From assembly GCA_027310665.1 (NCBI GenBank), contig DAIDAJ010000105.1, forward strand, positions 1-64,000: a DNA stretch of 64,000 nucleotides. The letters run 5' to 3'. Source of the DNA: Sideroxydans sp. Lineage in GTDB: Bacteria > Pseudomonadota > Gammaproteobacteria > Burkholderiales > Gallionellaceae. This document shows positions 14,551 through 24,442 of the stretch, in pieces. Under the pieces are notes generated by a model. That model made no database searches. It saw only the letters and a program-made list of their open reading frames with translations, and was not told where the DNA came from. A program made the position numbers and the translations under genes. Position 1 is the first letter of the stretch, and every line of letters starts with the position of its first letter.

Positions 14551-15245
14551 TTGCTTTCTCCGTAATTTCTGGTGCCGAATATCGCCGTGCCGATCCGCAC
14601 GATGGTAGCACCCTCCTTGATGGCCGCGGGATAGTCGTGCGACATGCCCATCGACAGGGTATCCAGAGACATGCCCTGCGAGTTCATTTTTTCCAGCAAC
14701 ATCCGCATCCTTGCGAAAGGTACACGCTGCTCCATTTCGCCCGCCGCGGGAGCCGGTATCGTCATCAGTCCGCGCAACCTGATATGCGGCAAGTGCGCAA
14801 GCTGTTGTGCCAGAGGCAGCGCCTCTTCGGGTGCTACGCCGCTCTTGCTCTCTTCTTCGCTCGCGTTCACTTGCAGACAGATGTTCAGCGGGGGCAGATT
14901 TGCAGGTCGCTGTGCCGACAACCGCTCGGCGATCTTCAGCCTGTCCACGCTGTGCACCCACGCAAAGCGCTCGGCGATGGCGCGCGTCTTGTTGCTCTGG
15001 ATGGGGCCGATGAAATGCCACTCCAGCGGCAGATCGCGCAACGCGTCGATCTTCTCCAGTGCTTCCTGCAGGTAATTCTCGCCGAAAGCGGTCTGCCCGC
15101 AGTCGTACGCCTCGCGCACCGCCGTCGCCGGAAACGTCTTGCTGACGGCCAGCAAACTGATATCCGACACATTCCGGTGTGCCGCTCTGGCGGCTTGGGC
15201 AATGGCTTCGCGGGTCGCTTGCAAGTTGGAGAGGATTGCAGTCAT
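14547..15245 (-). CDS. YggS-family pyridoxal phosphate homeostasis protein
   Basis: LLAVSKTFPATAVREAYDCGQTAFGENYLQEALEKI...LEWHFIGPIQSNKTRAIAERFAWVHSVDR. Confidence 0.93.
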   Translation of the reverse strand: MTAILSNLQATREAIAQAARAAHRNVSDISLLAVSKTFPATAVREAYDCGQTAFGENYLQEALEKIDALRDLPLEWHFIGPIQSNKTRAIAERFAWVHSVDRLKIAERLSAQRPANLPPLNICLQVNASEEESKSGVAPEEALPLAQQLAHLPHIRLRGLMTIPAPAAGEMEQRVPFARMRMLLEKMNSQGMSLDTLSMGMSHDYPAAIKEGATIVRIGTAIFGTRNYGESK

Positions 15246-15297
15246 AATCGCCCGAGTCGTCGTGATCCGACGCAGTTTAATACACTCAGGATTATAT

Positions 15298-16341
15298 ATG
15301 GATATCACCGAACTGCTCGCCTTCGGCGTGAAGAACAAAGCTTCCGACTTGCATCTCTCCGCCGGCCTGCCACCGATGATCCGCGTGCACGGCGACATGC
15401 GCCGCATCAACCTGCCCCCGATGGATCACAAGGAAGTCCACGCCATGGTGTACGACATCATGAACGACGGGCAGCGCAAACATTACGAAGAGAACAGGGA
15501 AGTCGACTTCTCGTTCGAGGGGCCGAACCTGGCGCGTTTCCGCGTCAACGCCTTCATCCAGAACCGCGGCGCCGGTGCGGTGATGCGTACCATTCCTTCC
15601 AAGATACTCACGCTGGAAGACCTCAAATGCCCTCCGATCTTCAAGGACATCTCCGAATTCCCGCGCGGCATGGTGCTGGTGACCGGCCCGACCGGTTCCG
15701 GTAAATCGACCACGCTGGCGGCGATGGTGAACCACATCAACGAAAACGAGATGGGCCACATCCTGACCGTGGAAGACCCGATCGAATTCGTGCACGAATC
15801 GAAGAAGTCGCTGGTCAACCAGCGCGAAGTCGGCCCGCACACGCTGTCGTTCAACAACGCCCTGCGTTCCGCACTGCGCGAAGACCCGGACGTGATCCTC
15901 GTCGGCGAAATGCGCGACCTGGAAACCATCCGTCTCGCGATGACGGCAGCGGAAACCGGCCACCTTGTCTTCGGCACACTGCACACCAGCTCGGCAGCCA
16001 AGACCATCGACCGTATCATCGACGTGTTCCCGGCCGACGAAAAGGAAATGGTGCGCGCGATGTTGTCCGAATCGCTGCGTGCGGTGATCTCGCAGACACT
16101 GCTCAAGACCAAGGACGGCACGGGCCGCGTGGCGGCGCATGAGATCATGATCTGTACCCCGGCGATCCGCAACCTGATCCGCGAAGCCAAAGTGCCGCAG
16201 ATGTATTCCGCCATCCAGACCGGCGGCAACATCGGCATGCAGACGCTGGACCAATGCCTGAGCGATCTGGTGAAGCGCAACCAGGTGGCTTCGGCGGAAG
16301 CGCGCGGCAAAGCCGTGAACAAAGACCTGTTCCCGGGTTAA
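15298..16341 (+). CDS. pilT: Type IV pilus retraction ATPase PilT
   Basis: MDITELLAFGVKNKASDLHLSAGLPPMIR; Walker A GPTGSGKSTT; AIRNLIRE motif. Confidence 0.96.
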   Translation: MDITELLAFGVKNKASDLHLSAGLPPMIRVHGDMRRINLPPMDHKEVHAMVYDIMNDGQRKHYEENREVDFSFEGPNLARFRVNAFIQNRGAGAVMRTIPSKILTLEDLKCPPIFKDISEFPRGMVLVTGPTGSGKSTTLAAMVNHINENEMGHILTVEDPIEFVHESKKSLVNQREVGPHTLSFNNALRSALREDPDVILVGEMRDLETIRLAMTAAETGHLVFGTLHTSSAAKTIDRIIDVFPADEKEMVRAMLSESLRAVISQTLLKTKDGTGRVAAHEIMICTPAIRNLIREAKVPQMYSAIQTGGNIGMQTLDQCLSDLVKRNQVASAEARGKAVNKDLFPG

Positions 16342-16384
16342 CCCCCTACCAAATCAAGAACCATAGCTGCACCAGGAGTCCATC

Positions 16385-17521
16385 ATGGAAAGAGACCAGG
16401 CCACCGAACTTGTCCACAATCTTTTGCGCGGGATGGTTTCGCAAAAGGCATCCGACCTGTTCATCACCTCCGGCTTCCCGCCCGCGTTCAAGGTGGACGG
16501 AAAAATGACGCCGGTTTCCAGCCAGGCGCTGACATCGCAACACACCCAGGAACTGGCACGCAGCATCATGAACGACCGCCAGGCTGCGGAATTCGAGTCG
16601 ACCCACGAGTGCAATTTTGCGATCAGCCCGCCCGGCATCGGGCGCTTCCGCGTCAACGTGTTCATGCAACAGCAGCGTGTCGGCATGGTGCTGCGTACCA
16701 TCACCACCAGGATCCCCACTTTTCAGGAACTGGGGCTGCCGGATGTCCTGAAGGACGTGGTGATGACCAAACGCGGCTTGGTGATCCTGGTCGGCGGAAC
16801 CGGCTCCGGCAAGTCATCCTCGCTGGCTGCCATGCTGGGCCACCGCAACCACAACAGCTATGGCCACATCATCACCATCGAGGACCCGGTGGAATTCGTG
16901 CACGACCACGACAAGTGCATCGTCACCCACCGCGAGGTGGGCGTTGACACCGACAACTGGCATGCCGCGCTGAAGAACACCCTGCGTCAGGCGCCGGACG
17001 TCATCCTGATCGGCGAAATCCGCGACCGCGAGACCATGGAATACGCGGTAGCCTTCGCCGAAACCGGTCACCTGTGTATGGCCACATTGCACGCCAACAG
17101 CGCCAACCAGGCACTCGACCGCATCATCAACTTTTTCCCGGAAGAGCGGCGCGAACAATTGCTGATGGACCTGTCGCTCAACATCAAGGCGCTCATCTCG
17201 CAACGCCTGATCCCCAAGCGCGACGGCAAAGGCCGCGCTGCCGCCTTCGAGATCCTGCTCAACTCGCCGCTGATCGCCGACCTGATCTTCAAGGGCAACG
17301 TGCACGAGATCAAGGAAGTCATGTCCAGATCGCGCGAACTCGGCATGCAGACCTTCGACCAGGCGCTCTTCACACTGCATGAAGCCGGCGCCATCAGCTA
17401 CGAGGAAGCCCTCAAGAACGCCGACTCCGTGAACGACCTGCGCTTGAAGATCAAACTGGAAGGTCAGGCCACGAAGGACAGGGACGTGATGAGCGGGCTG
17501 GATAACCTGAGAATGACCTGA
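16385..17521 (+). CDS. pilU: PilT/PilU-type twitching ATPase, PilU
   Basis: Adjacent to pilT; KASDLFITSGFPPAFKVDGKM, GGTGSGKSSS. Confidence 0.92.
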   Translation: MERDQATELVHNLLRGMVSQKASDLFITSGFPPAFKVDGKMTPVSSQALTSQHTQELARSIMNDRQAAEFESTHECNFAISPPGIGRFRVNVFMQQQRVGMVLRTITTRIPTFQELGLPDVLKDVVMTKRGLVILVGGTGSGKSSSLAAMLGHRNHNSYGHIITIEDPVEFVHDHDKCIVTHREVGVDTDNWHAALKNTLRQAPDVILIGEIRDRETMEYAVAFAETGHLCMATLHANSANQALDRIINFFPEERREQLLMDLSLNIKALISQRLIPKRDGKGRAAAFEILLNSPLIADLIFKGNVHEIKEVMSRSRELGMQTFDQALFTLHEAGAISYEEALKNADSVNDLRLKIKLEGQATKDRDVMSGLDNLRMT

Positions 17522-17575: not shown

Positions 17576-18040
17576 CTACTGCCGAGTTGGGGATTTCAGC
17601 CGCTGCTCCAGCCAGGCATCCACCGACCATTTCCCGCGACTCAGTATCAGCAACACACCCAGCAATACCCCCCAGCAAAAGTGCTGGAACATTCCCGCCT
17701 CGCTCAAGCCGGAAGCATAGGAATAGGCAGCGACCGCATTGAGGATGAACAACCCCGCCGCTGCAAAGCGCCCGAACAATCCCAGTACCAGGAATACCGG
17801 CAATGCCAGTTCGCCACCGGCCGCCATGTACGCAGCGACATCGGGCGGAAGCAACGGCACCTGATAGACATCACTGAACAGGTACAGCGTGCTGTCCCAG
17901 TTCTGTATCTTGGTCAGGCCGGATTTGAGAAACACGTCCGCAAGGTATAGCCGTAGCGCGAAATCCAGCAGCGGCGCCAGATATTCCGGCCAGTGTGAGG
18001 CTGTGTAATAGAACCTCGTCAGGCGTGATAACAGTGTCAT
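17576..18040 (-). CDS. DoxX-family membrane protein (bufferin-operon type)
   Basis: LLDFALRLYLADVFLKSGLTKIQNWDSTLYLFSDVYQVPLLPPDVAAYMAAGGELALPVFLVLGLFGRFAA; overlaps upstream DUF2063 gene. Confidence 0.88.
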   Translation of the reverse strand: MTLLSRLTRFYYTASHWPEYLAPLLDFALRLYLADVFLKSGLTKIQNWDSTLYLFSDVYQVPLLPPDVAAYMAAGGELALPVFLVLGLFGRFAAAGLFILNAVAAYSYASGLSEAGMFQHFCWGVLLGVLLILSRGKWSVDAWLEQRLKSPTRQ

Positions 18041-18813
18041 GGTGTCTTCTCCAGATTGAAGTTCGCAAGAGTATTTTGTGCGACCAGCTTCAACAACGTG
18101 GCTTGCAAATCGAAATCCGGATAGTGCTCCAGCGTAGTAACCGTAGCATCGCCCAATCGCGCACCGGCCTGTATGCCCTGCAACCAAACGGCTTCGGCTT
18201 CCGTCAGTTCACTGACCTGGACAATGTCATCCTTGCGGCTGACCAGCGCATAACCGGGGCCACCATCCAGATCGATATGAAAGTCTTCAGATGCACCGGG
18301 CTGATGGGCGTGCCAGATGGCTGCTATCGGATAATGCGAGCGCACCACATGACAGGACGGATGGGTATGCAAGACCAGATCCGGATATCGCTCGGGCGGG
18401 ACTTGTGCGAGTGCATTCAGGTCCAGCACATCCCCATCATCCGCAAAATAGGCGACATGGCACGCCCACTCCAGCGCCGCCACATCCGGCAGGTAAACCA
18501 GTTCCTTTGCCGGCTCGAAGGTCGCGATGAAGCCTGCCAGCTCCAAACCGAAGTGATGCAGGTTCGCACTGCGGGAAGGATGTTGCTCGATGTACTGCCT
18601 GGCAAGGAAGCGGAAGAAATCGTCGCCAACGAGTTGCTTGATGACCGGATACGCGCCCGCCAGCGCATCATGCAGGTTGCCGCGATAATTGTTGCGATAG
18701 ACCCCGAGCGCGGTTTCAGCGGAATAATCGGCATAGGCCTGCCTTATCCGCGGAGACGGCATATGGCCATGCACGATGGCCTGTGCGAAATGACTCAGTT
18801 CGTCATGCAGCAT
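18037..18813 (-). CDS. DUF2063 / HvfC-BufC-like putative DNA-binding domain protein (likely MNIO partner)
   Basis: GVYRNNYRGNLHDALAGAYPVIKQLVGDDFFRFLARQYIEQHPSRSANLHHFG; overlaps DUF692 gene. Confidence 0.9.
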   Translation of the reverse strand: MLHDELSHFAQAIVHGHMPSPRIRQAYADYSAETALGVYRNNYRGNLHDALAGAYPVIKQLVGDDFFRFLARQYIEQHPSRSANLHHFGLELAGFIATFEPAKELVYLPDVAALEWACHVAYFADDGDVLDLNALAQVPPERYPDLVLHTHPSCHVVRSHYPIAAIWHAHQPGASEDFHIDLDGGPGYALVSRKDDIVQVSELTEAEAVWLQGIQAGARLGDATVTTLEHYPDFDLQATLLKLVAQNTLANFNLEKTP

Positions 18814-19648
18814 GACACTCCTCCACTGCCTCCAGGCGCTGCCGGGCTTTTGCCGCCTCGCCCATCAGCACGGCGAGTTCGGGGATGTCGGTATCCCATT
18901 CGATCAGCGTGGGGCGCGGACCGATATGCCGCAGCACGGACTCATACAAGTCCCACACCTCGGGATAGATCGGGTGGTCGTGCGTATCCACCAGACAGCC
19001 GTCGCGCATGCTGTAGCCGGCCAGGTGGTATTCCTTCACAGCTGCTGCAGGAATGGCCTTGATGAACGCGTCGGCATCCACGCCGAGATTGCGCGCGTTC
19101 ACATACAGGTTCTCCACATCGAACAGGATGCCGCAGCCAGTGCGCTTCGTTAATTCTGCGAGGAATTCACCCTCCGTCATTTCGCTACGGGAAAAGGACA
19201 GATAGCTGGAGAGGTTCTCCACCAGCAATTGGCGCTGCAATCTTTCCTGTACCTGATCCACGCGCCGGGCGACATGGTCCAGCGCTTCGCGGGTATACGG
19301 GAACGGCAGCAGGTCGTTGATCACCATGCCGTCCGCCGCACTCCAGCACAGATGCTCGGATACGGCAGCGGGTTGCACGTCGGCGCATAGCCGCGCCAGT
19401 GCTGACAAATGGCCTGCATCGAGCGGCGTCACGGACGCCAGGCCCAAGCCGACGCCATGCAGGCTGACGGGGTAATGTTCGCGCACCCTGAACAGGGTAT
19501 GCAGCGGCGCACCCCCGCCGAAGAAATTCTCGCTATGGACCTCGACCCAGCCCAGCGCGGGCAAGGTATCCAGGACCTCGCGGTAGTGAGGTGCCCGCAA
19601 GCCGATACCTGCGGCAGACGGCAATGTATTGGTTGCGGGCCCGTTCAT
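18803..19648 (-). CDS. DUF692 multinuclear non-heme iron oxidative enzyme (BufB/HvfB-like)
   Basis: GIGLRAPHYREVL...VEVHSENFF...SLHGVGLGL...SEHLCW...LVENLSSYLSF...VENLYVNARN...KEYHLAGY...DTHDHPIYPEVWDLY. Confidence 0.93.
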   Translation of the reverse strand: MNGPATNTLPSAAGIGLRAPHYREVLDTLPALGWVEVHSENFFGGGAPLHTLFRVREHYPVSLHGVGLGLASVTPLDAGHLSALARLCADVQPAAVSEHLCWSAADGMVINDLLPFPYTREALDHVARRVDQVQERLQRQLLVENLSSYLSFSRSEMTEGEFLAELTKRTGCGILFDVENLYVNARNLGVDADAFIKAIPAAAVKEYHLAGYSMRDGCLVDTHDHPIYPEVWDLYESVLRHIGPRPTLIEWDTDIPELAVLMGEAAKARQRLEAVEECHAA

Positions 19649-19911
19649 TACATCGCCTTCAGCATGCCGCCTGCGATCTTGTCGCAAGTGCCTTTGGGAA
19701 CGGCGACGAAGTCCATCGGGTCGTTGTTTTTGGTGGCCTGGCCTGCACAGGAGTGCGCGCTCTTGTTGCTGGAGCAATCGTTCTTGCCTGCCTTGGCGAT
19801 CCCGAAGCATTGTTCCATATCCATCTTCTTGTCTGCGGCACTCGCGGTACCTGCCAGACCGAGTGCCAACAGACCACCGATCGCCAACGTCAACATTTTC
19901 TGCTTTTCCAT
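19648..19911 (-). CDS. DUF2282 bufferin-type RiPP precursor with signal peptide and four Cys
   Basis: [87 protein letters not shown]; stop overlaps DUF692 start. Confidence 0.93.
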
Positions 19912-20021
19912 TTTGATACTCCTTTTGCGGGTTGATGAAATTGATTGATAACGCGTTTCCAACGATGTTCGGGCCGGATTCGAAATTCCGATACACAGCA
20001 TCCTTCCCTCGCACCGATTGA

Positions 20022-20047
20022 TTCGGACAGACCGGAATTTTGGTTAC
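20022..20047 (-). promoter_or_regulatory. Putative ECF (SigF-like) promoter of the bufferin operon, GTAACC-N16-CGAA on the minus strand
   Basis: Plus strand TTCG(20022-20025)-N16-GGTTAC(20042-20047); same architecture upstream of msrB. Confidence 0.7.
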
Positions 20048-20103
20048 ACGACCGATGAAAATATTTTCAAACGGATTTCAAATCGAACCAGTCAGCGTGA
20101 TGT

Positions 20104-20730
20104 TCACTGGTAAAGCGCGGGAAACTGCTTGCGCAATTGCGTCAGCTTGGGCATGTCGTTGAACACGATGTAGGGCTGGTAGGGATGCAAGGCCAGATAG
20201 TTCTGGTGATGCTCTTCTGCCGGATAGAACTGTCGCAGCGGCACCACTTGGGTGACGATGGGCGCGGGAAAAACATGCGCCGCCGTGAGCTTGCCGATAT
20301 AGCTTTGCGCGGCCTGCAGCTGTTCGGTGCTGGTGTAAAAGATCGCGGACCGATACTGGCTGCCGGTATCGGGACCTTGGCGGTTCAGCTCGGTCGGGTC
20401 GTGCGCCACGCCGAAGAACACCTGCAGCAATTGCCGGTAAGTCACCCGCGCCGGATCGAAGCGAACCTGCACCGATTCCGCGTGTCCTGTGTTGCCTTCG
20501 CTCACCATTTCATAGTGCGCGGTGGACGCGTCTCCGCCGGCATATCCGGACACGACGCCGGTCACGCCTTTGACATGCTTGAACACCGCGTCCACGCCCC
20601 AGAAACAGCCCCCCGCAAACACCGCCGTCTGTTCGGCGGGTGCTGCGTTCGCATTCGGCAGGGCTGCGAGGCCCAGCACGAGACAGAGGATGCAGGACAA
20701 ATGACGGCTGACGGGTTTGATGGATATCAT
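20104..20730 (-). CDS. msrA: Peptide-methionine (S)-S-oxide reductase, with signal peptide
   Basis: AVFAGGCFWGVDAVFKHVKGVTGVVSGYAGG; N-terminal hydrophobic signal. Confidence 0.95.
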   Translation of the reverse strand: MISIKPVSRHLSCILCLVLGLAALPNANAAPAEQTAVFAGGCFWGVDAVFKHVKGVTGVVSGYAGGDASTAHYEMVSEGNTGHAESVQVRFDPARVTYRQLLQVFFGVAHDPTELNRQGPDTGSQYRSAIFYTSTEQLQAAQSYIGKLTAAHVFPAPIVTQVVPLRQFYPAEEHHQNYLALHPYQPYIVFNDMPKLTQLRKQFPALYQ

Positions 20731-20748
20731 GATGAGACTCCTTTTGAT

Positions 20749-22446
20749 CTAGCCGAAGGTGAAGGCAAACGCCTCCGCATCGGCATCCAGAAATTCGATG
20801 CGGAAGGTCAGGTTCCTGATCTTTCCGCTTTGTCGCACGAGCTGGTACAGGCGTTGTTCCTGTATCACCCCATAGCCTTCGGCGTCGGTGTCGGCACCGT
20901 GATCCTTGCCGGGGGCTCTTCCATCCAGGGTGACCCTGAAACGCACCGGCTTGCCGCTGTGCGAGCCCAATACCAGATGCAGGTCACGTCCGCGATAGCG
21001 GTAACTGATGGCGCCCCGGCCCGGCTGCAACAGCGCGGATTCCGGGCTGACCAGCCACGTGCCGCTGAGCGCCCATTGATCCGTCTCAAGCACGCGCGGA
21101 ATGCTATAGCGCCCCGGCGTATCGCGCCTGATCGCCTCGGGTGATACAAAATTCTCCTGACGTTTGTAGCCGAGATACGTCTCCGGGGATCGATCCACAT
21201 CCATTGCGGCCGCAGTCGCACCTGTTCCCGCGACCTGCACCAGGTCATCGTTCAAGGCCACGTCCCGATTCGCCTCCTTGAGCAAGGACTGGATCATCAA
21301 CTCGGTTTCCTGATACGCGCCTTCGCCGAAATGCTGATGGCGTATGCGCCCCTGGGCGTCGATCAGGTAATGTGCGGGCCAGTATTCGTTCCGGAACGCA
21401 TTCCAGATCACGTAATCGTTGTCGATCGCCACGGGGTATTTCACGCCCAGTTCGCGCACGGCCTGTTCGACGTTGTGCAAGTCTTTCTCGAAAGCGAACT
21501 CCGGTGCGTGCACGCCGACGATGACCAGACCCTGGGCCCGATATTTTTCGTCCCATGCCTTGAGGTATGGCAAGGTGCGCAGGCAGTTGATGCAGGAATA
21601 GGTCCAGAAATCCACCAGCACCACTTTGCCGCGCAACGTTTCTTCGCTCAGCGCCGGTGAGTTCAGCCATTGCGTTGCGCCATTCAAAGAGGGTGCCATG
21701 CCTGCTGCCGCGACCTCTGGCGCATCGGAACGCGGCGCCAGATGTTCGATCAGATGTTGCTCGGCAACCGTGGTATTTGCCGAAGTGAATTGCGCCAGAA
21801 ATCGCGTATCCCAGCTTGATGCGATCACGACGATGCCCGCCACCACCGCGACACCCAGCACACGCCTCACCCATTCTTCGACGCCGAAGCTGCGTTTCAT
21901 CCAGCCGATCACGCGGCCGCTGGCCAGCAACGCCACACCCAGAGAGGTCGCCGCACCGGCGGCAAACACCAGCAGCAGCAATGCGCTGTGCAGATTCGCG
22001 CCGTTCAGTGCCGCGCCCGCCAGCACCAGGCCCAAGATAGGCCCGGCGCAGGGCGCCCACAGGAAGCCGACAGCCACGCCCAGCAGCAGCGAACCTTTGA
22101 TGCTGCCCTGACTGTCGGCGCGTTGTTGCAGGCGACCTCCCAACACGACGAAAGGACGCATCATCCGTTCCGACCATGACGGGAAGATCAGCGCCAAGCC
22201 CAGCAGCAACAACAGCAGCATCGCCGCGTAGCGCCCGTATTGGTTCACTTCGACCAGCCACGCGCCGCCCACCGCAGCCAGGCTGGCCAGCACGGTGAAG
22301 GTCGCCGCCATGCCGAGCAGGATCGGCAGGCCGGAACGACGGAACGATCGCTCCGAACGCGCGAACACGAAAGGCAGCACCGGCAGCACGCAAGGACTCA
22401 GAATGGTGAGCACGCCGCCAAGCCAGGCGAGCAAAAAAATTAGCAT
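20749..22446 (-). CDS. DipZ-like cytochrome c biogenesis/thiol-disulfide protein (CcdA membrane domain, thioredoxin-like domain, C-terminal DipZ domain)
   Basis: SPCVLPVLPFVFARS CcdA region; VLVDFWTYSCINCLRTLPYLKAW thioredoxin-like motif; GYKRQENFVSPEAIRRDTPG. Confidence 0.92.
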   Translation of the reverse strand: MLIFLLAWLGGVLTILSPCVLPVLPFVFARSERSFRRSGLPILLGMAATFTVLASLAAVGGAWLVEVNQYGRYAAMLLLLLLGLALIFPSWSERMMRPFVVLGGRLQQRADSQGSIKGSLLLGVAVGFLWAPCAGPILGLVLAGAALNGANLHSALLLLVFAAGAATSLGVALLASGRVIGWMKRSFGVEEWVRRVLGVAVVAGIVVIASSWDTRFLAQFTSANTTVAEQHLIEHLAPRSDAPEVAAAGMAPSLNGATQWLNSPALSEETLRGKVVLVDFWTYSCINCLRTLPYLKAWDEKYRAQGLVIVGVHAPEFAFEKDLHNVEQAVRELGVKYPVAIDNDYVIWNAFRNEYWPAHYLIDAQGRIRHQHFGEGAYQETELMIQSLLKEANRDVALNDDLVQVAGTGATAAAMDVDRSPETYLGYKRQENFVSPEAIRRDTPGRYSIPRVLETDQWALSGTWLVSPESALLQPGRGAISYRYRGRDLHLVLGSHSGKPVRFRVTLDGRAPGKDHGADTDAEGYGVIQEQRLYQLVRQSGKIRNLTFRIEFLDADAEAFAFTFG

Positions 22447-22497
22447 GATGATTGTTCCTCGTTACCGGTAATTGTTGAATTGTCCATCGTGGCACAG

Positions 22498-22577
22498 CCG
22501 TTCGTGGTGAGCTTGGGGCCATTCATGGTTCGACAAGGCCTTTAGTCCTGAGCGCAGTCGAAGGATCACCACGAACG
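22498..22577. repeat. Palindromic intergenic repeat, family 2
   Basis: gccgttcgtggtga ... tcaccacgaacggc terminal inverted repeats; internal CCATTCATGGTTCGACA is shared with 62178-62330. Confidence 0.75.
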
Positions 22578-22612
22578 GCGGCGTATTTGTTAACTCACCA
22601 AGTGGCCGGGAT

Positions 22613-23146
22613 TTATTTAGGTCTGGGCACGAAGCGCAGCGCCACGGTGTTCATGCAGTAGCGCAGCCCGGTCGGTGCGGGACCGTCGTCGAACACATGG
22701 CCCAGATGCGAATCGCACAGGGTGCAGCGCACTTCGATGCGCGTCATGCCGAACATGCGATCCGTGATGTTGCGCACGTTCTCCGCCGCGATGGGCTGCC
22801 AGAAGCTGGGCCAGCCGGTGCCGGAATCGTATTTGGTGGCGGCGTCGAACAGTGCGTTGTCGCAGCACACGCAGCGATACAAACCGGGTTCGTGCCTGTC
22901 GTAGCCGGGCTGGGAGAACGCCCGCTCCGTGCCCTGCTGGCGCGTCACTTCGTAGGCCAGCGGCGACAGGCGTTGTTTCCACTCGGCATCCTTGTTCACT
23001 TTGGTCAGGGTGGCCGGCCCGAGCAGCTTGCCATCATCGGAATACTGCATCACGGTCACCTTGTCCGCGGACGCTCCTGCATTGGAACGTGCCGAATACG
23101 TCAAAGCCATACCGGATAAAGCCATCAAGAATTGTCTGCGTTGCAT
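22613..23146 (-). CDS. msrB: Peptide-methionine (R)-S-oxide reductase, Tat-like signal
   Basis: N-terminal MQRRQFLMALSGMAL; CVCCDNALFDAATKYDSGTGWPSFWQPI...RYCMNTVALRFVPR. Confidence 0.95.
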   Translation of the reverse strand: MQRRQFLMALSGMALTYSARSNAGASADKVTVMQYSDDGKLLGPATLTKVNKDAEWKQRLSPLAYEVTRQQGTERAFSQPGYDRHEPGLYRCVCCDNALFDAATKYDSGTGWPSFWQPIAAENVRNITDRMFGMTRIEVRCTLCDSHLGHVFDDGPAPTGLRYCMNTVALRFVPRPK

Positions 23147-23222
23147 GATGTTGCCTCCTGTGCATTAGTCTCGTTCGATAGGAGAACCCAAACCAGTTAT
23201 GATTCATCCATTCGCACGTATA

Positions 23223-23248
23223 TTCGAAGCTGCCCGATAAATAGTTAC
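23223..23248 (-). promoter_or_regulatory. Putative ECF promoter of msrB, GTAACT-N16-CGAA on the minus strand
   Basis: Plus strand TTCG(23223-23226)-N16-AGTTAC(23243-23248), matching the bufferin-operon promoter. Confidence 0.6.
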
Positions 23249-23267
23249 AAAAATCTCCGGGATCCTC

Positions 23268-23807
23268 GTGACGGAACAAAACGACAATCTGGAAACATTG
23301 ATGCGGCGGTCACTGGCCGGGGATCAGCGCGCCTACGCCGCGCTGTTGCATGAGACCACACGCCTGTTGCGCCCGTTCCTTGCCAAGCGCCTGAGTATCG
23401 CCGGTGAAGTTGATGACCTGATGCAGGAGATTCTGCTCTCCATCCATAAAGCCCGCCATACCTACGACGGCAATCGCCCTTACAAGCCCTGGGTGTATGC
23501 CATCGCCAAGTTCCGCCTGCAGGATCATCTGCGCGTCCATTATTCCGACCAGTTGCGCCATGCCCTCGATTTCGATGAACTCGAAGAATATTTGCTCGAG
23601 CCTGTAACCGAATCGTTGATGTCGTACGAATCCATCAGCGGGGAAGTGGATAAACTCCCCGAGAAACAGGCGATGATCCTGCGCTTCCTGCACCAGGACG
23701 GTTACACCGCCAGGGAAGTGGCCGAGAAGACCGGCATGACCGAGTCTGCGGTCAAGGTCGCTGCGCACCGCGCCTACAAGGTATTGAGAAAGAAGCTGGA
23801 AAGATAA
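23268..23807 (+). CDS. ECF-type RNA polymerase sigma factor
   Basis: 179 aa, GTG start; DDLMQEILLSIHKARHTYDGNRPYKPWVYAIAKFRLQDHLR; region 4 TAREVAEKTGMTESAVKVAAHRAYKVLRKKL. Confidence 0.93.
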   Translation: MTEQNDNLETLMRRSLAGDQRAYAALLHETTRLLRPFLAKRLSIAGEVDDLMQEILLSIHKARHTYDGNRPYKPWVYAIAKFRLQDHLRVHYSDQLRHALDFDELEEYLLEPVTESLMSYESISGEVDKLPEKQAMILRFLHQDGYTAREVAEKTGMTESAVKVAAHRAYKVLRKKLER

Positions 23808-24442
23808 TGGCAAATATCGACGATCTCGTGACGACACTTGCGCAGGATGCGGCGGCGGTAAAGCCTGCGCCGCACCCGTTCTTGCTGTGCTTCCAATGGA
23901 TGGGCGCGGCGGCAGTCTACCTTGCGCTCGCGCTGGCGATCTCCGGACCGCGTCCGGACCTGCTCGATCGCTTCCACCAGACCTGGTTCGCCGCCGAGAT
24001 CGCCGCGCTGCTCGGCGTATTCATCGTCACCTCGCTCAGCACCGCCTTGCTGGCATTTCCCGACCTGCACCAGAAGCGCCGCCTGGCCTTCGCACCCGTC
24101 GCCGCTTTCGCGCTGTTCGTGGGTGTCATGTTCCTTGCCTGGCGGGCCGACAACCCGCCCTCGCCGTTGCCGGTACACAGCTTCGAGTGCACCCTCAGCA
24201 TCGCGCTGATGACGCTGCTGCCCGCGGCATGGGCGTTCTATTCCCTGCGCAGATTTGCCAGCACACACTACCGGCTCGCCGGCAGTACGGCCCTGCTCTC
24301 TGCTTTCAGCGTAGGGGCACTGTGGCTGCGGCTGCACGAAGATACGAACTCCATTGCGCATCTGGTCGAGTGGCACTACTTGCCCATGCTCGTCATCGGG
24401 CTGGCAGGGCTGTGGCTGGGGAAAGTGCTGTTGAAATGGTGA
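23807..24442 (+). CDS. DUF1109 (NrsF-like) integral-membrane anti-sigma factor
   Basis: Start overlaps sigma stop; six apparent TM segments, SFECTLSIALMTLLPAAWAFYSLRR and EWHYLPMLVIGLAGLWLG typical of DUF1109. Confidence 0.88.
   Translation: MANIDDLVTTLAQDAAAVKPAPHPFLLCFQWMGAAAVYLALALAISGPRPDLLDRFHQTWFAAEIAALLGVFIVTSLSTALLAFPDLHQKRRLAFAPVAAFALFVGVMFLAWRADNPPSPLPVHSFECTLSIALMTLLPAAWAFYSLRRFASTHYRLAGSTALLSAFSVGALWLRLHEDTNSIAHLVEWHYLPMLVIGLAGLWLGKVLLKW

Follow-up and report, generated by a model that had tools for sequence, protein, structure and literature searches.

A SigF/NrsF envelope-stress locus in a Sideroxydans genome: shared promoter motifs of the bufferin and methionine-repair operons and a putative nrsF promoter inside sigF

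Why should genes for a copper peptide and genes for periplasmic methionine-sulfoxide repair lie side by side next to one dedicated pair of sigma and anti-sigma factors? The question is raised by positions 17,576 to 24,442 of a 64,000-nucleotide (nt) stretch of DNA from Sideroxydans sp. (contig DAIDAJ010000105.1; hereafter the window), which is part of a 3.19-Mb genome in 127 contigs. In this locus sigF, encoding a sigma factor of the extracytoplasmic function (ECF) type ECF16, and nrsF, encoding its anti-sigma factor, are divergent from msrB-dipZ-msrA, the operon of methionine-sulfoxide reductases (Msr) and an electron carrier, which is followed by the bufferin operon bufA-MNIO-DUF2063-doxX, for a ribosomally synthesized and post-translationally modified peptide (RiPP). 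A sequence-only reading of the same DNA had listed these nine genes, called their combination notable and suggested a single envelope response to copper or reactive oxidants. The gene content holds good: all nine open reading frames are complete with zero internal stops, Pfam confirms each of them, and their ends agree with the span given there or differ from it by a few codons.

We consider it probable that the locus as a whole is a SigF/NrsF (ECF16-type) envelope-stress module with a joint regulon and an nrsF promoter embedded in sigF. NrsF would retain SigF at the inner membrane and let it go on a signal from the periplasm, either a metal or an oxidant. Freed SigF would then transcribe msrB-dipZ-msrA as a periplasmic repair line, in which DipZ would pass electrons from cytoplasmic thioredoxin to the exported MsrA and MsrB; it would transcribe the bufferin operon, yielding a presumably metal-chelating bufferin; and from a promoter that lies within the coding sequence of sigF it would transcribe nrsF alone. 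The sigF gene itself would be read from a promoter without the SigF motif. Activation would bring more NrsF and no more SigF, and the response would thereby turn itself off as a self-limiting pulse.

A promoter motif shared by two operons

The joint regulon is read from a promoter motif. SigF-type promoters are written GTAACC-N16-CGAA for Caulobacter, and the ECF16 consensus is given as (T/C)GTAAC-N17-CGAA in a study of Brucella (PMC8315932); both are equivalent to GTAAC-N17-CGAA, the notation used here. Two exact copies occur in the window against 0.23 expected, one directly 5' of bufA and the other of msrB, and both fit the ECF16 consensus. The whole genome holds 8 such sites versus 29 for the reversed pattern. 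Two of the six remaining matches were inspected: one is at the coding sequence of a glycosyltransferase, and the other precedes a CCG-domain gene by 144 nt. Neither has the flanking T or the T-rich spacer, and both were taken as chance. A scan of the window with one mismatch allowed found 10 sites, with 8.5 expected.

The motif was then followed in the relatives, using 39 NrsF loci from named genome contigs together with further relatives' loci, in total 1.08 Mb and labelled by L-numbers; the nearest named relatives are metagenome-assembled genomes of Sideroxydans and Gallionella. In these loci 63 copies lie upstream of msr genes, bufA or genes for methionine-rich peptides, as compared with 0-1 such sites at each of twelve other spacings. 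The neighbourhood comparison that the sequence-only reading had proposed gives the same nine-gene order in L113, L040, L058, L068 and L115, therefore the neighbourhood is not by chance; a rearranged version of the architecture is found in L108, L109, L066 and L065.

It might be argued that SigF governs only one of the two operons, the motif before the other being fortuitous and the neighbourhood a matter of shared mobility, as the bufferin operon lies distant from sigF in some genomes (L121, L122). However, these distant operons keep the motif, the spacing-exact sites number 63 versus 0-1, and the bufferin operons of L131, L132 and L136, relatives where no NrsF turned up, are without it; we regard this explanation as very improbable. 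There are exceptions: in L068 an exact copy before bufA is missing; the genome of L133 has NrsF, yet its second bufferin operon is without the motif; and the bufferin operon of L130 has the motif, although that genome, 64% complete, yielded no NrsF. Taken together, the shared spacing-exact promoters and the motif in relatives strongly support one response of both operons, with promoter activity and the direction of regulation being predicted from the DNA.

Further copies of the motif were observed before other genes of the relatives. At L041 (7217-7872, + strand) it precedes a gene for a prokaryotic cytochrome b561, which is divergent from msrB and may be a further envelope redox target, and at L076 (13711-14879, +) a catalase-family gene near sigF with a likely signal sequence. 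In the Nitrosomonas/Nitrotoga relatives L059 (10680-11514), L060 (8086) and L063 (6185), all on the + strand, it stands after nrsF and before a gene for an exported protein of about 225 amino acids, that of L059 having no Pfam match; at L057 (5839-6156, -) it is followed by a gene for a small exported Phe/Asp-rich protein, also without a Pfam match.

A SigF-type site inside sigF

Where, then, would nrsF be read from? The control on spacing disclosed a second cluster of matches at a longer spacing; to read them as background was dropped, since they resolve to one site within sigF. This intragenic site, TGTAACC-N17-CGAAT, corresponds to GTAAC-N18-CGAA, thus with one spacer base above the 17 of the target promoters, and it is the sole match of its pattern in the 3.19-Mb genome. 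It encodes V-T-E-x4-Y-E.

To evaluate the conservation, sigF genes were dereplicated at 93% nucleotide identity, which gave a set of 54 whose median pairwise nucleotide identity is 0.72; the null was 500 rounds of synonymous shuffling within each gene. The site stands at the same place in 49 of the 54 genes, while the shuffles average 2.8 and never exceed 9. The codon of Val113 is GTA in 51/51 and is the most biased codon of the gene; that of Tyr120 is TAC in 51/51 and that of Glu121 is GAA in 52/53. Codon 112, which encodes Asp, Asn, Pro, Ala or His, ends in T in 50 of 54 genes (19.9 expected). The site is flanked by a T on each side, as are the target promoters. The four spacer codons 116-119 are variable. 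As judged from these alignments, the codon pattern is selection on the DNA itself.

The site also follows the subtype of the anti-sigma factor. In the clade whose NrsF has one of the two cysteines known from other systems, about 54 of 57 sigF genes carry the intragenic site and 0 are directly preceded by a SigF motif; in the clade with two cysteines the intragenic site is found in 0/48, and in about 27/48 the canonical motif lies immediately 5' of sigF (clades were assigned automatically, with a few misassigned rows corrected by reading). A consensus of the own sigma factor within the sigma gene, pointing to the anti-sigma gene, is also what is seen in the promoters PrshA and rseA P3, apart from the spacer one base longer here. 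By analogy with PrshA in Corynebacterium sigH, the most likely role of the site is to drive nrsF only.

Two other readings of the same codons have to be weighed. According to the first, they would belong to an RNA element or a translation signal, such as coupling or a small-RNA site, and the likeness to a SigF promoter would be accidental. It is true that third bases of sigF codons 125, 130, 172 and 174 are constrained too (z 7.7 to 9.5), so the constraint is not all promoter-like, and the ones close to the 3' end may have to do with translation of nrsF. But at the site the constraint falls exactly on the two boxes and fits TGTAAC and CGAAT with the spacer codons left free, and the pattern occurs nowhere else in the genome and is missing in the sister clade, where the motif often stands upstream of sigF; this reading is quite unlikely. 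According to the second, the sequence would be a binding trap or roadblock, at which bound SigF-RNA polymerase slows read-through of sigF-nrsF or SigF is titrated. The spacer of 18, off the optimum of 17 found in nearly all target promoters, agrees with this, whereas the preservation of both boxes and of the T on each side, the orientation toward nrsF and the two proven anti-sigma promoters inside sigma genes (PMC3489674, PMC8595263) speak for a working promoter, and we find a trap unlikely. A separate sigma-region-4 protein made from an internal transcript was considered as well and rejected, there being by eye no well-placed start with a ribosome-binding site.

Several points weigh against an embedded nrsF promoter and the module built on it. 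The longer spacer may mean a weak site, and the extra base would perhaps make the promoter weaker than those of the targets; in L065, on the other hand, the only site before bufA of the bufferin operon has the same longer spacer (3787, +), therefore this spacing may be usable. Conservation shows that the DNA is selected, not for which purpose. The related sequences are non-independent, though sigF third positions elsewhere vary (at four-fold sites the median entropy is 1.39 bits). The Gallionellaceae L108 and L117 have lost the intragenic site, and sigF there ends a SigF-driven bufferin operon. Moreover, the promoters are predicted from DNA, for the organism and its close relatives alike, and a housekeeping promoter for sigF is putative.

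In the one-Cys clade, that is Gallionellaceae and scattered others, we incline slightly to the view that the autoregulatory promoter has shifted from before sigF into sigF. A switch that induces itself would thereby become a pulse generator with anti-sigma-only feedback, coupled to a slot that holds either a bufferin or a sacrificial peptide rich in methionine. Since the sister clade has the alternative arrangement, the dynamic effect of moving one promoter is directly testable. The embedded anti-sigma promoter, if true, would be a further, evolutionarily separate instance of the PrshA and rseA P3 design.

The anti-sigma subtype, the trigger and the peptide slot

Which signal would release SigF? 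NrsF has cysteines C131 and C181 in Caulobacter, and C129 and C179 in Brucella. The protein encoded here scores as a member of the Pfam family but is a divergent subtype by this feature: Cys128 is invariant in 55/55 aligned NrsF sequences, while the second position is a glutamate, E178, conserved at 98% and followed by conserved S182, H185 and W-H-Y-L-P-M. In the distant relatives L127, L128 and L129 the second cysteine stands within an LHCPE motif. Its replacement by Glu178 therefore excludes a sensor needing both cysteines for the one-Cys clade, and a Cys/His/Glu metal site is a possibility, with C128, H124, E178, H185 and H190 as candidates. The AlphaFold model of NrsF consists of long helices, and a Foldseek search of it against the PDB gave no solved-structure relative (best E 1.2). 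A copper or oxidant trigger is plausible by homology to Caulobacter (Cu) and Brucella (hypochlorous acid, HOCl); the local NrsF is without one of the two cysteines present in both of these systems.

The product of the slot beside sigF bears on the same question. In 18/54 loci the gene next to sigF encodes a small exported MXKDX peptide that repeats MSKDAM-like units, mostly preceded by the motif; 15/54 have bufA, and 0/54 have the two together (Fisher 6e-4, kinship ignored). This could mean that the module responds to hypochlorite or another oxidant only and that the bufferin is a sacrificial redox sink rather than a copper chelator, as homologous peptides scavenge HOCl (PMC8315932) and several bufferins of relatives have MMMKK tails at their end. 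However, although the peptide and bufA labels change 9 and 8 times on the SigF+NrsF tree, the kinship-corrected test had only 3 supported pairs, and by it the exclusion is not significant; one genome (L041, L122) has both genes. Strict exclusion was thus rejected and is kept as a lead only. Moreover, Caulobacter SigF responds to Cu, Cr and Cd, and not to H2O2, tert-butyl hydroperoxide, paraquat or diamide (PMC3511200, PMC8224329). We hold the oxidant-only reading to be possible but doubtful. The alternation makes the function of bufferins, metal sink or redox sink, a testable question.

As to the tails, the BufA C-termini in L040, L058, L068 and L121 are methionine-rich (e.g. GDMMMKKAM), like the methionine-rich peptides that replace bufferins elsewhere.

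Genes of the locus and known systems

The features of the locus are collected in Table 1.

Table 1. Positions of the genes and predicted promoter sites in the window
Feature	Position	Strand	Evidence and remarks
DoxX-family membrane protein, final gene of the bufferin operon	17576..18040	-	Pfam DoxX 1.9e-18; ATG overlaps DUF2063 stop
DUF2063, partner protein of the MNIO enzyme	18037..18813	-	Pfam 1.4e-23
MNIO (DUF692) RiPP-modifying enzyme	18803..19648	-	Pfam MbnB_TglH_ChrH 2.8e-104; PDB 3bww, 8hci, MbnB structures
BufA, Buf1-type bufferin precursor (DUF2282), signal peptide, four Cys	19648..19911	-	Pfam 7e-25; Cys pattern
Predicted SigF-type promoter of the bufferin operon, GTAACC-N16-CGAA	20022..20047	-	exact match; 110 nt 5' of bufA ATG
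MsrA, Sec-like signal	20104..20730	-	Pfam PMSR 1.7e-58
DipZ-type electron carrier: CcdA-like membrane domain, CINC thioredoxin domain, C-terminal Thioredoxin_10	20749..22446	-	Pfam; PDB
MsrB, twin-arginine-like signal	22613..23146	-	Pfam SelR 2e-48; relatives' N-termini
Predicted SigF-type promoter of msrB-dipZ-msrA, GTAACT-N16-CGAA	23223..23248	-	exact match; 76 nt 5' of msrB ATG
SigF/ECF16-type ECF sigma factor	23268..23807	+	Pfam r2 + r4; linked NrsF; 62-97% identity in relatives
SigF-type site TGTAACC-N17-CGAAT in sigF codons 112-122, putative nrsF promoter	23603..23631	+	176 nt 5' of nrsF ATG
NrsF anti-sigma factor (former DUF1109), Cys128, Glu178	23807..24442	+	Pfam NrsF 2e-42; alignments; AlphaFold model pLDDT 90

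SigF consists of sigma-70 r2 and r4 only and is followed by the NrsF membrane protein, the two genes overlapping in TAATG; the pairs bufA/MNIO and DUF2063/doxX overlap too, and the MNIO and DUF2063 genes share 11 nt. The bufferin operon has the complete Buf1 set, and the four cysteines of BufA match the trait of that family (PMC12452194). The dipZ product has DsbD_TM, AhpC-TSA/Redoxin and Thioredoxin_10 domains by Pfam and matches Mycobacterium tuberculosis DipZ (PDB 5cyy/2hyx, 8e-60) and CcdA (5vkv), all three parts of a DipZ electron carrier being present: the CcdA-like domain, a thioredoxin-like CxxC and the C-terminal domain. The signals of MsrB (MQRRQFLMALSG) and MsrA were judged by eye.

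Two observations concern the DNA between and beyond these genes. A 14-nt perfect inverted repeat (GCCGTTCGTGGTGA) lies at 22497-22579, between msrB and dipZ, and CCGTTCGTGGTGAGC has 13 copies in the genome versus 0 for its reversed control, hence it is a dispersed repeat located inside the msrB-dipZ-msrA operon. Just past the bufferin operon, the list of open reading frames has two neighbouring PilT/PilU-like twitching ATPase genes (15139-17521).

How much of this is new? As far as joint SigF control goes, the single envelope response put forward earlier is supported by the shared promoters at msrB and bufA and in relatives; as a new idea it does not stand, and neither does calling the combination notable, for both were already known. 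Caulobacter crescentus SigF controls two DUF2282-DUF692 operons and MsrPQ (PMC3511200, PMC8224329), and sigma and NrsF genes have been reported as neighbours of Buf1 clusters (PMC12452194). Beyond that reading we add the promoter motif, the intragenic sigF site, the cysteine change in NrsF and the methionine-rich-peptide alternative. For environmental iron-oxidiser relatives, which are difficult to manipulate, a guess from the neighbourhood has thus become a regulon predicted at the level of promoters, and the pairing of copper-peptide synthesis with methionine repair in the envelope under SigF would extend far beyond Caulobacter.

Like the locus here, the Buf1-type clusters have the bufA(DUF2282)-MNIO-DUF2063-DoxX core, a four-Cys precursor and associated sigma and NrsF genes; the main text of that survey (PMC12452194) leaves Msr unmentioned. 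As for the repair line, the streptococcal surface-repair system (PMC3914529, PMC7034828) likewise feeds extracytoplasmic MsrA and MsrB by a relay of CcdA and a thioredoxin-like protein, but with a fused MsrAB and a separate thioredoxin-like protein instead of separate MsrA and MsrB and a fused DipZ, and under different regulation.

For the embedded promoter, the precedents are Corynebacterium glutamicum, where PrshA within sigH drives rshA only and sigH is read from housekeeping promoters (PMC3489674), and Escherichia coli, where rseA P3 lies within rpoE (PMC8595263). In both, the anti-sigma gene is served by its own sigma factor from within the sigma coding sequence; the ECF and anti-sigma families are unrelated to those here, the promoters are experimentally proven there and predicted here, and in E. 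coli an upstream sigmaE promoter is also retained.

The hypochlorite systems BcrS-AbcS of Brucella and SigF-NrsF of Azospira share the ECF16 sigma/anti-sigma pair beside periplasmic Msr genes and the promoter consensus (PMC8315932). In Brucella this sigma type governs a methionine-rich peptide and MsrQP under HOCl, and a peptide of that kind occurs in relatives of our locus; these systems differ in that the effector is the methionine-rich peptide with MsrQP, a bufferin being undescribed there, and in the two cysteines of the Brucella anti-sigma factor.

The closest system is that of Caulobacter, in which a sigF mutation combined with rapid amplification of 5' cDNA ends (5'RACE), lacZ fusions and microarrays led to a regulon of two DUF2282-DUF692-DUF2063 operons and yedY (PMC3511200), copper RNA-seq placed sigF-nrsF, both operons and MsrPQ in the core copper response, and the sigF mutant is copper-sensitive (PMC8224329). 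Both loci have an ECF16-type sigma factor with the membrane anti-sigma NrsF, the promoter GTAACC-N16-CGAA (PMC3511200, PMC8224329), and DUF2282-DUF692-DUF2063(-DoxX) operons co-controlled, in our case by prediction, with a periplasmic methionine-sulfoxide reductase. They differ in the place of the SigF site, upstream of sigF there versus inside sigF before nrsF here, in the two important NrsF cysteines there versus one here, and in the repair enzymes. What is new in the present locus is therefore the one-Cys NrsF subtype, the embedded sigF site, the methionine-rich-peptide alternation as a lead, and the use of MsrA, MsrB and a DipZ-type electron carrier in place of MsrPQ.

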